From Pyrococcus horikoshii OT3 (GTDB lineage Archaea > Methanobacteriota_B > Thermococci > Thermococcales > Thermococcaceae): a stretch of DNA of 64,000 nt. Under the pieces are notes generated by a model. That model was not told the DNA's origin. It saw nothing but the letters and a program-made list of their open reading frames with translations, and did no database searches. The stretch covers positions 1,102,662 to 1,166,661 of the forward strand of contig NC_000961.1 of the NCBI RefSeq assembly GCF_000011105.1, in the 5' to 3' direction. This document shows, piece by piece, positions 6,829-56,410 of the stretch. Each line of letters opens with the position of its first letter. The first letter of the stretch is position 1. Both the position numbers and the translations under genes were made by a program.

Positions 6829-7664
6829 TAATCCTGGATAACCACTTCCACGTCGATCCCATTAACGGATTATTCCTGGAAGCAGTGAAGCAGTTCCATA
6901 GGGCTGGAGGTACTCACCTCGTAGTCGTTTACAAAAGCGCCCATGACTATGGATTCGGGGGAATGAAGGGAGAAGACTTCATGAGGGCCATGGATTTCCA
7001 CGTTGAGCTTGTGGAGATAATAAATAAGGAAACACCTGTAAAGGCTTATGCCGTCGTAGGCGTCCATCCGGCCGAGTTCGATTATCTAGCGAGAGCTAGA
7101 GGGATCGAATATGCCAAGAGGGAGGTAATGAAGGCCCTGGAGCATGCCCAAAGATTATGCCTGGATGGTAAGGCTATTGGAATAGGAGAAGTGGGAAGGC
7201 CTCACTACCCAGTTCCTGAGGAAATATGGGAAGCAAGTATAGAGATCATGAAGTATGCAATGGCCCTAGCTAAGGAAGCAGATTGTGCAGTTCAGTTACA
7301 CACCGAAAGTTTTGATGAGGAGAAGTTCAGGGAACTTGGAAGGTACGTGAGAGAAGTGGGGATAAAACCCTATAGAGTTGTTAAGCACTTTTCTCCACCT
7401 CTCGTTAAGGTTGCAGAAGAAGTTGGAATTTTTCCTAGTATAATAGCGAGCAGGAAGAACATAGAGGAAGCCATAAAGCAGGGAACAAGGTTTCTCATGG
7501 AAACGGATTACATAGATGATAAGAGAAGGCCTGGGGCCGTTTTAGGACCAAAAACCGTTCCCAGAAGAACTAAGGAGCTCCTCCAGAAAGGAATATTAAC
7601 TGAGGATGACGTCTATAGGATACACGTTGAAAATCCTGAGAAAGTCTACGGAATAGAGCTATAA
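6825..7664 (+). CDS. TatD-related metal-dependent hydrolase
   Basis: A 279-residue TIM-barrel hydrolase of the TatD/amidohydrolase group. The metal-ligand motifs appear in order: DNHFHVDP at the N-terminus, VGVHPAEFD, IGIGEVGRPHY, QLHTESFDEEKF, VVKHFSP and LMETDYIDD. In other organisms relatives are DNases or phosphoesterases; the archaeal substrate is uncertain. The start overlaps the preceding gene by 4 bases, and the end overlaps the convergent ABC ATPase gene by 6 bases. Confidence 0.85.
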   Translation: MIILDNHFHVDPINGLFLEAVKQFHRAGGTHLVVVYKSAHDYGFGGMKGEDFMRAMDFHVELVEIINKETPVKAYAVVGVHPAEFDYLARARGIEYAKREVMKALEHAQRLCLDGKAIGIGEVGRPHYPVPEEIWEASIEIMKYAMALAKEADCAVQLHTESFDEEKFRELGRYVREVGIKPYRVVKHFSPPLVKVAEEVGIFPSIIASRKNIEEAIKQGTRFLMETDYIDDKRRPGAVLGPKTVPRRTKELLQKGILTEDDVYRIHVENPEKVYGIEL

Positions 7665-8411
7665 TCCGACTAGAGGAATTACCTCCCCCTCTACCCTTGC
7701 AACCCTAATCTTGACTCCATACGTCTCGCTCAAAATCTTTTCCTCAAGCTCTTCCCTTGTTAATAATCCAGTGCTCCTACCATCTTTAAGGAAGAGAAAC
7801 TCTTCCCCAAACCTGAGGGCTAGGGTCAAGTCATGCATAACGGTAACCACGGTCTTACCCCTCTTTACGAGATCCTTTATTATCTCCATAACTTCAATCT
7901 GACTCTTAGGATCGAGATTGTTAGTTGGTTCGTCAAGGAGGATAACAGGAGTTTCCTGGGCTATGGCTCTAGCTATAGCAACTTTCTGTAGTTCCCCACC
8001 GCTTAAAGTTTTCATAATTCTATCTTCAAGCCTCTGAATGCCGAGTAACCTAAGTGCATCCTCCACAGCTTTTAAATCCTTCCTCCCTGGGTTTAAACCC
8101 ATATATGGTTTCCTCCCCAGGAGAACGAAATCAAAGACCCTTAGGAACCCTGGCTCTATCCTTTGGGGAACATAGGCTAATAGCTTTGCAAGCTCGATCC
8201 TACTTAACTCCTTTATGTCGTTTCCCAGAACTTTAATGCTTCCTTTATATTTGAGTATCCCAGCTATGCATCTGAGTAATGTTGTCTTTCCAGCGCCATT
8301 TGGACCCAGGATAATTAGAAAGCTCCCCTTGTCAATTTCAAAGTTTATATCGTGCAGTATCTCCCTCCCATTATGTGAGAACTTCAAGTTTTCAACCTCT
8401 ATCCCCTTCAT
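7659..8411 (-). CDS. FecE/BtuD-type ABC importer ATPase
   Basis: A 250-residue ABC ATPase with Walker A GPNGAGKTTLLR, signature LSGGELQKVAIARA and Walker B VILLDEPTNNLDP. It is the ATPase of a type II importer for iron complexes, haem, cobalamin or molybdate. The start overlaps the permease stop (ATGA). It is the last gene of the four-gene operon FmdE, binding protein, permease, ATPase, which appears to be driven by a promoter with a SurR-like site at 11296-11312. Confidence 0.9.
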   Translation of the reverse strand: MKGIEVENLKFSHNGREILHDINFEIDKGSFLIILGPNGAGKTTLLRCIAGILKYKGSIKVLGNDIKELSRIELAKLLAYVPQRIEPGFLRVFDFVLLGRKPYMGLNPGRKDLKAVEDALRLLGIQRLEDRIMKTLSGGELQKVAIARAIAQETPVILLDEPTNNLDPKSQIEVMEIIKDLVKRGKTVVTVMHDLTLALRFGEEFLFLKDGRSTGLLTREELEEKILSETYGVKIRVARVEGEVIPLVGL

Positions 8412-9439
8412 TCCCTTCCCTCCATTCTAATTAACAAGTACAGGAACATTGGAGCTCCCAAAAATGAGGTAACAACTCCAACTGGAAGTATCATCGGTGA
8501 GAAAATTAACCTAGCAAACGTATCCGCTACTAGAAGTATTAAACCCCCTAAAAGGGTTGATAAGGGGATTAGGAACCTGTAATCTCCTCCAAAGATGAGC
8601 CTCACTATGTGAGGGGCTATTAATCCTACGAACCCTATCACCCCAACGAAAGCGACAGTAACGGATGTTACGTAGGTTGAGAGTACTGCAGATATTAGCC
8701 TGAACTTTTCAATATCAACCCCTACGGAAAGGGCTACCTCATCACCAAGCGAGGAAGCATTTAAATCCCATCCCTTCAGAAGGAAAAAAGCAAGTATTGG
8801 GATCAAAGAAAGAATCATTATAGCATTTTCAAACCAATAAGGTCTACCCAGGTCACCAAAGCTCCAGTAAACCATTGCTGCTAATTGTATTTCATTCGCA
8901 AAGTACTGAATTAGTGTTGTTAAAGCTACAAAGAGGGAGCTCATGGCAACTCCTGCAAGTATCATCGCTTGAGGGCTTAACCCTTTAAGCTTTGCCAGGA
9001 GAATTATCACTACCGTGGAAGTCATGGCCCCAGCGAAGGCAAAGGCCACTATAATGTAGGGATTATCTACGCTGATCTTTCCCGAGCTCTCGGCATAGCC
9101 GGCCCCTAAGAGTATCGCCAAGGATGCTCCAAACATCGCCCCGTGAGAGACTCCCATGGTGAAGGGAGTTGCCAATGGATTTCTCAAGATTCCCTGAAGA
9201 ACTGCACCTCCAAGGGCTAGGGATGCACCAACGATTATTGAAGCTATTATCCTAGGTAGCCTTATGTTCCATACCGCTTCCCTTGCTGAAGGATTTCCCC
9301 TGGTGAAGAGGGCAAGAATAACTTCTTTAGCTGAGAGAGGGTAAGCTCCCTTAGTTAAGGAAAATATAGCTAAGGTTATAATTAGGAGTAAAAGAAAAAG
9401 GATTGCTAAAATCCTTTTCCTCACGTATTCCTCGTACAT
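8408..9439 (-). CDS. FecCD/BtuC-type ABC importer permease
   Basis: A 343-residue permease with about ten membrane segments and the family hallmarks RLPRIIASIIVGASLALGG, GILRNPLATPFTMGVSHGA and GFVGLIAPHIVRLIFGGD. One permease gene is present, so the transporter would be a homodimer, as in BtuC2D2. The start lies 6 bases after the stop of the binding-protein gene. Known substrates of the family are iron chelates, haem, cobalamin, and molybdate or tungstate in MolB-like members; the sequence alone does not decide. Confidence 0.9.
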   Translation of the reverse strand: MYEEYVRKRILAILFLLLLIITLAIFSLTKGAYPLSAKEVILALFTRGNPSAREAVWNIRLPRIIASIIVGASLALGGAVLQGILRNPLATPFTMGVSHGAMFGASLAILLGAGYAESSGKISVDNPYIIVAFAFAGAMTSTVVIILLAKLKGLSPQAMILAGVAMSSLFVALTTLIQYFANEIQLAAMVYWSFGDLGRPYWFENAIMILSLIPILAFFLLKGWDLNASSLGDEVALSVGVDIEKFRLISAVLSTYVTSVTVAFVGVIGFVGLIAPHIVRLIFGGDYRFLIPLSTLLGGLILLVADTFARLIFSPMILPVGVVTSFLGAPMFLYLLIRMEGRE

Positions 9440-9445
9440 AGCTCA

Positions 9446-10546
9446 TCACGGATTCTGGGGTAGTGAATAAGCAACTTTACCGTTTTCTAGGTCTATTTTC
9501 CCAAATCCACCGAACTGCTCAGCGAGAACCTTGTATACTGGTTTTCCTACGAGGAAAGAGTATATCTCATCGGCCTTCTTCTCTGGATCAACATCCTTAA
9601 ACTCCTCCGGGTATAGAACCTTTCCTATGAAGTAGGCATCCGCTATCGCTGTTCCTATGTTCGTTGAATAGAAGTTGTAAGGTAGCAAACCGTAAAGTTT
9701 CCCCTCTTTAACTGCTCTCAAGGATCTATAGAATTCAGGATTCTTCTTATAGTCATCTAGGATAAGCCTAAGTCCCCCTTCATCAATGAATATGTACTCG
9801 GGTTGCCACTTAAGGAGGATCTCCTTATCGATGAACTTGTGCCCCTTTCCTAGAGCGCTAGCAACATTGTAGGCACGCAAAACCTCGAAGGGAGGATAAT
9901 CAGCTTTCGTGCTTTCAATTCCATGAGCTCCTTTGTAGCCTATCCCTCCAACGTAAACTTTTTTCGGTTTAACTTTTTCAGTTCTCTTCCTTAGATCTTC
10001 TTCAGCGGATTTTATGAAGGAAATAATGTCCTCAGCCCTCTTCTCCCTTCCCAGTATCTTACCAGCTAATCTTAAGGAGCTAAAGAATTCTTCATCGGTA
10101 AAGTTAGAGAGCTCACCGTAACTCAAGACTACAACTGGAATACCCGTCTTTTTCTGTATGTCATTTGCCGTTTTTTCATCTATGTATGTGGCAAATATTA
10201 TATCCGGCTTGAGCTTCATTATCGCTTCCAAATTTGGAAGCTTCCCGGGACCTCCGGGGCCTATTGAGGGTAAGTTTTTCAGCTCGGGGTGGGCGATTAT
10301 GTAAGGCCTTCCAAACGAGTATCTCTTTTCGAAATCTTCAACACCAACTACCATGTTAGTAGCGTTTAAATAAACGATGATCCTAAGGCATCCCGGCCCT
10401 ACTGCGACTATCCTGTGAACTTCCTTAGGAACATCAACAGTCCTTCCGAGCATATCCTTTACGGTTACTCCAGTTGTAGAAGTTTGTCCAGTATTTATAC
10501 AACCCAAGATGAAAGCTATCAAAATTATTGAAAGTAGCCTTTTCAT
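9446..10546 (-). CDS. Periplasmic-binding (FecB/BtuF/MolA type) lipoprotein
   Basis: A 366-residue solute-binding protein. It has a hydrophobic signal and a lipobox-like cysteine ([13 protein letters not shown]), so it is probably anchored outside the membrane. The body has the TroA-type features [30 protein letters not shown] and [10 protein letters not shown]. This class binds metal chelates, cobalamin or oxyanions. The start overlaps the FmdE stop (TTATGA). An FmdE gene beside a TroA-type binding protein recurs in archaea and hints at a metal or metal-cofactor substrate. Confidence 0.88.
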
Positions 10547-11238
10547 AACTTAACCTCCTCCAGCTCGACTATTCCCCTACCTATTACGCCAAGTATCTCC
10601 TTTCCAGCACAAACCTTACAGAACGGTTTCCCGTTTATATAAACAGCCTTAGGGGCCATTACGAGCTCTCCACATCTACTACATCTAACGCTTTCGAAAA
10701 TGGGAGCTTGCTCTATTGGGGAAACCTTAACCTTCTTTACCTCGAAAATCTCCTTAGGAAGATAAAGGAACTTTCTTCCAGTCTCCTCCCAGAGCTTACT
10801 AAGTTTCCTCTTTTCCTCGGGTGTCCCTTCTCTTCTTTTGATAACTTTTTCAAAGAGCTCTATAGCTCCTGGGGGGTAATAATCTTTGAGCTTCTCAGCA
10901 TCAACGTACACCCTTACTCCTTCCCAGTTACCCCTCTTAACTAAGGTTAATGCAGTTTTTCCCGTATCAAGGAAGATTAGAGAGTTATTACCAAACGTGC
11001 ATCCCGTGGTAACTTGAACCCCATCGGCAAAACAACTGTTCGTCTCCACTATAGCTAAAATGCTTTCATCAACACTTTCCTCAAGGCCGAGCCTGTTTAC
11101 GCTTAGTTCTTCCATCGCTATAAGGGAAGACCTAATTCCAAGGGCTAAGTATGGGCATATATGACCATGGAATACCTTTGCATATTCAAGTATTACATCA
11201 AACTTCTTTTCCTTTATAGCTAAATTTAAATTCTCCAT
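10543..11238 (-). CDS. FmdE-family protein with C-terminal zinc ribbon
   Basis: A 231-residue protein. The N-terminal FmdE domain shows [15 protein letters not shown] (about residues 23-37), [19 protein letters not shown] and a long helical segment. The C-terminus has a zinc ribbon with CSRCGEL and CKVCAG. FmdE is named for a formylmethanofuran dehydrogenase-associated protein, but no Fwd/Fmd genes lie here, and the family is often linked to metal uptake. It is the first gene of the FecBCD-type importer operon and sits right behind the SurR-like promoter. Confidence 0.85.
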
Positions 11239-11278
11239 TTTTCACACCAATTTCAGAAAAAGTGTTACAGCTTTTAAC

Positions 11279-11312
11279 AATTTTTAAAAGTTTTAGTTTT
11301 CAACTTTAGGTT
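11279..11312 (-). promoter_or_regulatory. Promoter of the FmdE/FecBCD operon with extended SurR motif
   Basis: The plus strand at 11296-11312 reads GTTTTCAACTTTAGGTT, an exact match to GTTn3AACn5GTT, the extended site known for the sulfur-responsive regulator SurR of Pyrococcus furiosus. On the minus strand it lies a few bases upstream of the TATA-like CTTTTAAAAAT (about 11280-11290), with the FmdE start at 11238. A site just upstream of TATA is compatible with activation. Motif and layout are seen; SurR control is inferred. Confidence 0.6.
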
Positions 11313-12025
11313 TACATGAGAATCCAGGCACCTATTCCGATTAGGAGAATTCCCGAAACTACTGAAAGCTCCCTGGAATGCTTAACTATCGTTCTTGAAA
11401 AGCTTTTGCTATCCGTTAAGCTTCCCATTCCAAATAGTATTACAAATAGGGGAAGGACAAATATAAGATTGTAGAGGGCAAGCATTAGGTAGGCTAATAA
11501 TTTCATCTTGGAGACGATAGTTGCGTAAACAACGTAAGGACCCATGGAACATGGTAAGAGTGTTAGAGAGACCATGAACCCAAGAATTAACCCACCTACC
11601 ATAGTTCCCTCGACTGAAAATGCAAGTTTCCTCAATTTACCTTTACCCACGGTTCTAGACTTTTCAAGAATTCCAGTCACTATATTATAAATTCCAAGGA
11701 TCACTGCTAGATAGCCGGCCCAACTTACCGGGATCTTCCCGGTAATAATGACAAGGCCGACGCCCAGGGAATAATAGGAGATATAAACTGCAACTATAAA
11801 GGCTAAGCCAACAATGTATAAGCTCTTCTTGGGTAAACCCTTAACAGAGAGAGCGATTAAGAAGATCGTATAGACTACAAACGTGCATGGGTTTATTGAA
11901 TCTAGAATAGCTAATGAAAAGAACTGAGGAATAAACTTTGAGAGGCCGAGTAAACCCAAGGATAGGGAGCTCAGACCAAAGGCAATCCCTATGATAATTA
12001 GTAGATATTTAATCTCCCTCTTCAT
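11312..12025 (-). CDS. CcdA/DsbD-like thiol-disulfide membrane protein
   Basis: A 237-residue polytopic protein of the CcdA (cytochrome c biogenesis/DsbD core) family. Two membrane segments carry the reactive cysteines, in ILDSINPCTFVVY and SLTLLPCSMGPYVVY. Such proteins move reducing equivalents from cytosolic thioredoxin across the membrane. No c-type cytochrome genes are seen here, so the acceptor is probably an external thiol protein. The gene ends 73 bases before FmdE on the same strand, and its promoter carries its own SurR-like site (12077-12093), pointing to redox or sulfur control. Confidence 0.85.
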   Translation of the reverse strand: MKREIKYLLIIIGIAFGLSSLSLGLLGLSKFIPQFFSLAILDSINPCTFVVYTIFLIALSVKGLPKKSLYIVGLAFIVAVYISYYSLGVGLVIITGKIPVSWAGYLAVILGIYNIVTGILEKSRTVGKGKLRKLAFSVEGTMVGGLILGFMVSLTLLPCSMGPYVVYATIVSKMKLLAYLMLALYNLIFVLPLFVILFGMGSLTDSKSFSRTIVKHSRELSVVSGILLIGIGAWILM

Positions 12026-12058
12026 GACGATCTTTGAAAAATAGAAAAGGGCTTTTAG

Positions 12059-12093
12059 GAGTTTTTAAAATAAAAGGTTAAAAACTAAAAGTT
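12059..12093 (-). promoter_or_regulatory. Promoter of ccdA with extended SurR motif
   Basis: The plus strand at 12077-12093 reads GTTAAAAACTAAAAGTT, again an exact GTTn3AACn5GTT. On the minus strand it lies directly upstream of a TATA-like TTTTAAAAAC (about 12059-12068), with the ccdA start at 12025. It overlaps the last bases of the upstream gene. AT-rich chance matches are possible, but the orientation and spacing are the same as at the FmdE promoter. Confidence 0.55.
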
Positions 12094-12474
12094 TAACCTC
12101 CTCTCCTTTGGAATGTAGTTTTTAACGACACCATTTACTAACTTGCCACCTCCAAGCCAGAAATCCCTCCACTTCAGTATTACCCATCTGTTTCCCTCCT
12201 CATTAACCTCGATGTCCTCCCCTCTCATCCATGATTTAGCCCTCTCATCATCAACCTCTATTACGTTCCTCTTAGCATTAGGTCCTATTATGAAAGATCC
12301 TTCTATCGTTAGTCTTATCCCATCCTTTTCTATAGCCCCTATGTAAATTCCATTATGACCGTTCTCGGGAAAATCGCAGGGCTTATATGCATAGATCTTC
12401 TTTCCCTTAACTTCCAGAATCAAGCCTTCCGGAGCGTATCCATATTGCTCAATGAGCATTTCCCTAATGTCCAT
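12085..12474 (-). CDS. Small protein with possible PUA-like domain
   Basis: A 129-residue soluble protein. The pattern GKKIYAYKPCDFPENGHNGI, then a beta-rich middle (DGIRLTIEGSFIIGPNAK) and a conserved-looking WVILKWRDFWLGGGKLVNG, suggests a PUA-like barrel as found at the C-terminus of some archaeal RNA methyltransferases. I cannot name the family with confidence. It lies 9 bases downstream of a minus-strand acidic hypothetical gene, so the two probably share a transcript. Confidence 0.65.
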   Translation of the reverse strand: MDIREMLIEQYGYAPEGLILEVKGKKIYAYKPCDFPENGHNGIYIGAIEKDGIRLTIEGSFIIGPNAKRNVIEVDDERAKSWMRGEDIEVNEEGNRWVILKWRDFWLGGGKLVNGVVKNYIPKERRLNF

Positions 12475-56372: not shown

Positions 56373-56410
56373 GTTCTCAACCTTTGGTTTTCAATTTTCG
56401 GGTTTAAAAA
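56373..56410 (+). promoter_or_regulatory. Sulfhydrogenase promoter with extended SurR site
   Basis: GTTCTCAACCTTTGGTT (56373-56389) is an exact match to the extended SurR motif GTTn3AACn5GTT. TATA-like GTTTAAAAAC follows at 56402-56411. In P. furiosus SurR activates this operon and lets go when its disulfide forms in the presence of sulfur. The spacing here, site just upstream of TATA, is as expected for activation. Confidence 0.8.

Follow-up and report, generated by a model that had tools for sequence, protein, structure and literature searches.

Conserved SurR-type sites at the promoters of a putative nickel-import operon and a ccdA-like gene in Pyrococcus horikoshii and other Thermococcales

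The fmdE-fecBCD operon and the ccdA-like gene of Pyrococcus horikoshii OT3 each carry, upstream of a TATA-like box, an exact extended site of the type read by the sulfur-response regulator SurR. The sites, their position, their conservation and the gene context of both promoters were observed in the 64,000-nucleotide stretch of DNA analysed here (the window, to which all coordinates refer) and in related genomes; judged by sequence, both promoters are very probably SurR-controlled. From these features we infer SurR binding, the direction of control, the cargo of the importer and the role of CcdA, and the resulting reading, in which two promoters of the SurR regulon are activated without sulfur, fmdE-fecBCD imports nickel and CcdA is co-induced, appears fairly probable.

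In the proposed mechanism, when sulfur is absent, reduced SurR would bind GTTn3AAC, together with a third half-site, some 19 bp before the TATA-like box and activate transcription, as it does for the genes of hydrogenases and their maturation; when sulfur is present, oxidised SurR would release the DNA and expression would drop. The fmdE-fecBCD products would bring in nickel, free or chelated, for the SurR-induced [NiFe] hydrogenases, with NikR as a putative second, nickel-sensing control on the operon. CcdA would be co-induced and would probably draw reducing equivalents from thiols in the cytosol and hand them to a thioredoxin outside the cytoplasm, a role that in this setting is our guess. 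If correct, this reading would identify a likely importer of nickel in Pyrococcus species, in which NiFe hydrogenases and NikR are present, often without any recognised nickel transporter, and would place metal supply under the same sulfur switch as the metal-using enzymes. Neither a metal importer nor a CcdA-like protein is among the SurR targets named in the literature outside the primary SurR papers, and the novelty of fmdE and ccdA as targets is provisional.

Table 1. Features of the window discussed in the text.
Feature	Position	Strand	Remarks
SurR-type extended site, ccdA promoter	12077-12093	-	coding strand AACTTTTAGTTTTTAAC; core in 8/8 Pyrococcus, 52/56 Thermococcus s.s.
Second candidate TATA-like box of ccdA	12063-12070		TTTTAAAA
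TATA-like TAAAAG of ccdA	12052-12057	-	19 bp downstream of SurR core; conserved
ccdA-like gene	11312-12025	-	polytopic membrane protein; one Cys in NPCT, one in LLPCS
SurR-type extended site, fmdE-fecBCD promoter	11296-11312	-	coding strand AACCTAAAGTTGAAAAC; core kept in 52/57 genomes
TATA-like TAAAAG of fmdE	11271-11276	-	19 bp downstream of SurR core; aligned A/T-rich block conserved
Candidate NikR-type element GTAACAC-N14-GTGTGAA	11241-11268	-	between TATA box and fmdE start codon
fmdE	10543-11238	-	FmdE domain PF02663, 4e-40; C-terminal zinc finger PF01258, 3e-7
fecB	9446-10546	-	Peripla_BP_2 substrate-binding protein, PF01497; putative lipoprotein signal
fecC	8408-9439	-	FecCD-type permease, PF01032, 1e-89
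fecD	7659-8411	-	ABC ATPase, PF00005
Fourth exact extended motif	8380-8396	-	within fecD (ABC ATPase) coding region; probably chance
Exact extended SurR-type site, sulfhydrogenase operon	56373-56389	+	upstream of operon; internal control

Promoter sites and their conservation

Both fmdE and ccdA lie on the - strand, and the coding-strand reading of each site is AACn5GTTn3AAC. The fmdE-side site directly touches the ccdA stop codon (11312), and the ccdA-side site overlaps the 3' end of an upstream ORF (12085-12474). As the initial annotation had reported, the exact motif GTTn3AACn5GTT occurs in the same orientation, on the + strand of the window, at the fmdE, ccdA and sulfhydrogenase sites, with the first two upstream of TATA-like boxes; its assignment of the third to the sulfhydrogenase operon is likewise consistent with the gene that this copy precedes, which encodes a 4Fe-4S (Fer4_22) protein that fits the sulfhydrogenase beta subunit.

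The window proteins were used to survey 94 Thermococcales genomes, which yielded ccdA in 89 and fmdE in 57 (fmdE is absent from about a third of the genomes), and the zone 25-110 bases upstream of the start was scanned alongside shuffles and control patterns of like composition. GTTn3AAC stands ahead of fmdE in 52/57 genomes (3.5 in shuffles), the full AACn5GTTn3AAC in 38/57 (0.03 in shuffles), and GTTn3AAC ahead of ccdA in 59 of 85 promoters (3.8 in shuffles), counts that take related genomes as separate and are non-independent through shared ancestry; control patterns stayed near background in both promoter sets. The fixed motif bases are kept, with variation in the outer flanks and at most positions of the spacers. 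By genus, the core precedes fmdE in all five groups (g1 8/8, g2 3/3, g3 32/37, g4 8/8, g5 1/1, with g1 taken to be Pyrococcus and g3 Thermococcus s.s.) and ccdA in 60/64 genomes of g1 and g3 together (8/8 and 52/56), which bears out the expectation that the motif would be kept at orthologous promoters.

Two broader elements of the initial annotation were not supported as worded. Control of ccdA does not appear to be general, as the core is missing in g4 and g5 (0/20) and in two g2 genomes (0/2) among those with upstream DNA read. Nor do all the parts form one locus, the adjacency of ccdA and fmdE being confined to Pyrococcus; elsewhere the genes lie far apart, with their own promoters. Outside the Thermococcaceae, the 17-mer was found in none of 38 fecB operons (among 42 with upstream DNA read), as expected of a site that a regulator of the Thermococcales recognises.

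The importer and its cargo

The proposed identities of FmdE and FecBCD are confirmed by Pfam matches to FmdE, Peripla_BP_2, FecCD and ABC ATPase families, and a single operon supplies the binding protein, FecCD permease and ABC ATPase that make up a FecCD-type ABC importer; FmdE, FecB, FecC and FecD are kept together in most loci examined. Solved relatives of FmdE are 2gvi, 3d00 and 2glz. For FecB, the nearest solved chain is 2etv (E 5e-157) and the next HI1472, and sequence alone thus cannot name the cargo.

Genomic context agrees with the metal import suggested at the outset and narrows the metal to nickel, the most likely cargo. The nikR gene stands immediately before fmdE in nine genomes and immediately after ccdA in three Thermococcus genomes, and several of 53 loci of FecB relatives, Thermococcaceae included, have NikR, Ni-CODH (CooS), a CooC-like ATPase or CbiM nearby. 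FecB relatives also occur in many anaerobic bacteria, beside a methyltransferase, a TrmO-like protein, a CooC-like ATPase or a TonB receptor. Across the order, cbiM promoters carry AACn5GTTn3AA[N] in the place of the SurR site, often with extra half-sites; the last C is often changed, and a NikR-like repeat follows.

The NikR consensus, GTGTTAC-N13/14-GTAACAC, comes from delta-proteobacteria (PMC545781), and the fmdE and cbiM elements are close to it. In a search that used mononucleotide shuffles and permitted three relative half-site orientations, an element with at most 3/14 mismatches was found in 51/57 fmdE promoters (0.3 in shuffles); such an element follows the TATA box in 34/40 cbiM promoters and 0/85 ccdA promoters. 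At fmdE the left arm is clear, the right arm is variable and coincides with the ribosome-binding site, and the fit to the consensus is poorer than at cbiM; the fmdE element is accordingly labelled a provisional candidate. Its half-site orientation varies between genera.

In a published survey, NiFe hydrogenase was present in 4/4 Thermococcales, one of which had a known nickel transporter (PMC2667541). Neither CbiM nor NicO was found in P. horikoshii, and NicO, considered as an alternative nickel transporter, had no match in the 94 genomes. Complementarity with CbiM was dropped as proof of nickel, the distributions of fmdE and CbiM not being significantly complementary (Fisher p = 0.28); five genomes are without both, and four of those have hypF.

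The nikR, CooS, CooC-like and CbiM neighbours, together with the shared NikR-like element, favour nickel over the other cargoes that could be combined with SurR control, namely molybdate or tungstate, an iron or heme complex, or vitamin B12. Such a cargo is unlikely, even though FecB resembles a molybdate-binding protein and putative iron-binding proteins, and HI1472, second to 2etv among its solved relatives, is what we take to be the MolA molybdate/tungstate protein. The best NCBIfam match of the permease is BtuC, under its cut-off, and a cobalamin riboswitch occurs in two loci of FecB relatives, though in the 38 loci scanned no metal or cobalamin riboswitch reads into fecB. The fmdE operon is best read as encoding a nickel importer.

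Direction of control

The core lies 19 bp from TAAAAG in both window promoters, and the hypF, hypC, nfn-like and surR promoters have a similar layout. The third half-site is found upstream of the core at fmdE and at Pyrococcus ccdA and downstream of it at most Thermococcus ccdA genes; as it moves, the kept features are the core and its spacing to the TATA box. Published SurR-activated sites lie upstream of the TATA box and repressed sites on or below it (PMC12162507, PMC12401011). With the core upstream, as in the activator layout, activation would be expected without sulfur, and the geometry of the sites points to such activation at both promoters, a direction that the initial annotation had not fixed. 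The transcriptome of Pa. pacificus, in which nickel/cobalt transfer genes and hypF are up with sulfur (PMC6981617), speaks against simple SurR activation in that organism.

For ccdA, the opposite sign, in which SurR would repress the gene without sulfur and sulfur would induce it, is distinctly unlikely. It draws on Thermococcus s.s., where the third GTT, placed downstream of the core, touches the purine-rich block that precedes the TATA box, such that the half-site (GTTTTAGAAA) would reach the BRE, and on mbs, where a SurR site overlapping the BRE/TATA brings repression (PMC12401011). Nevertheless, the hypF and hypC promoters are arranged alike, hydrogenase genes are SurR-activated when sulfur is absent, and both fmdE and Pyrococcus ccdA have their third half-site on the upstream side of the core, away from the TATA box; activation of both promoters remains the preferred reading.

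Copies of the motif in the window and the genome

The extended motif had been called rare by chance, and the window indeed holds four exact copies against 0.29 expected from shuffles (largest shuffle count 2), the copy within fecD having gone unnoticed in the initial annotation. The core GTTn3AAC by itself is not enriched there (18 vs 12.9 expected), and motif density was therefore set aside as an argument. The whole P. horikoshii genome contains 17 exact copies of GTTn3AACn5GTT against 9 of a reversed control pattern; intragenic copies occur in about the chance number, and most non-coding copies adjoin known or expected SurR-controlled genes (pdo/surR; nfn-like and hypC-hypD; hypF; SHI; trxR/mbh; a second nfn-like gene), with the fmdE and ccdA copies in addition. 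A non-coding copy that lies some 190 bp from a purT-like gene seems incidental. The unenriched core and the several genome-wide copies in coding DNA, at background frequency, would suit a motif that arose by chance in AT-rich promoters or that serves a different regulator, a highly improbable reading given the fixed position and bases, the variable spacer, the spread over several genera, the background level of shuffled and control patterns and the absence of the motif from relatives outside the Thermococcaceae; chance origin was rejected on the order-wide conservation.

The ccdA-like gene

The name ccdA, given in the initial annotation, stands only through intermediates. Neither Pfam nor NCBIfam gives a direct match to the window protein, a profile search of PDB and Pfam returned nothing significant, and a structure model (pLDDT 75, moderate confidence) gave no PDB fold match under E 0.001. 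The orthologue from genome G078 matches DsbD_TM at E 0.0025, and profile A1, built from CcdA orthologues, matches at 1e-29 a protein of genome G093 that itself exceeds the DsbD_TM cut-off; these two links suggest membership of the DsbD/CcdA superfamily. Both cysteines are invariant in 11 aligned orthologues, and NPC[TA] is present in 85/85.

In many Thermococcus genomes, the gene for a secreted lipoprotein thioredoxin (CPHC) lies just upstream of ccdA; in many Thermococcus s.s. genomes 65-75 bases separate the end of this gene from ccdA, with the SurR-type site between. In g4 and g5, the thioredoxin gene overlaps ccdA by a few bases and its own promoter is likewise without the site, and in P. 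horikoshii it is located elsewhere, apart from ccdA. A SurR-type site before the ccdA-linked thioredoxin gene is mostly absent, with a few isolated cores, and none stands at the P. horikoshii copy. One extension, tentative and rather doubtful, would have SurR set both the making of NiFe hydrogenase and the supply of nickel, with a CcdA-type reductant exporter taking part in that supply; in sulfide-rich water it might, for instance, prevent extracellular nickel or the binding protein from becoming unusable.

Comparison with known systems

The 17-base site is shared with the SurR regulon (P. furiosus PF0095; mbh, SHI, mbs, nsr, pdo, surR), and its place relative to the TATA-like box with the hypF, hypC, nfn-like and surR promoters; unlike the named SurR targets, those described here are a metal importer and a CcdA-like protein. 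NiuBDE of Helicobacter pylori, a FecCD-type nickel ABC importer, has in common the FecCD-class permease, the ATPase and a class III binding protein, and its control by NikR at ceuE (niuB) would find a parallel in the candidate NikR-type element at fmdE (PMC5140060). No FmdE partner is described for NiuBDE (PMC5140060), whereas the archaeal operon adds a sulfur-redox site and its metal is predicted from context. NikMNQO/CbiMNQO systems with a NikR site (PMC545781, PMC2667541) share the nickel demand of hydrogenases and a NikR-like promoter element, provisional at fmdE, but are unrelated ECF transporters, and P. horikoshii is without CbiM. Likewise, CcdA/DsbD transmembrane reductant carriers are polytopic, with two conserved cysteines, and the lipoprotein thioredoxin neighbour in many Thermococcus extends the likeness; in contrast, the window protein falls under Pfam detection and its model has no significant PDB fold match.

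The fmdE and ccdA promoters are two clean, conserved promoters suited to SurR and NikR binding tests. Elsewhere in the window, a CRISPR-like repeat array (CTTTCAATTCTATTTTAGTCTTATTGGAAC) runs from about 15140 onward and is followed by cas-like ORFs.
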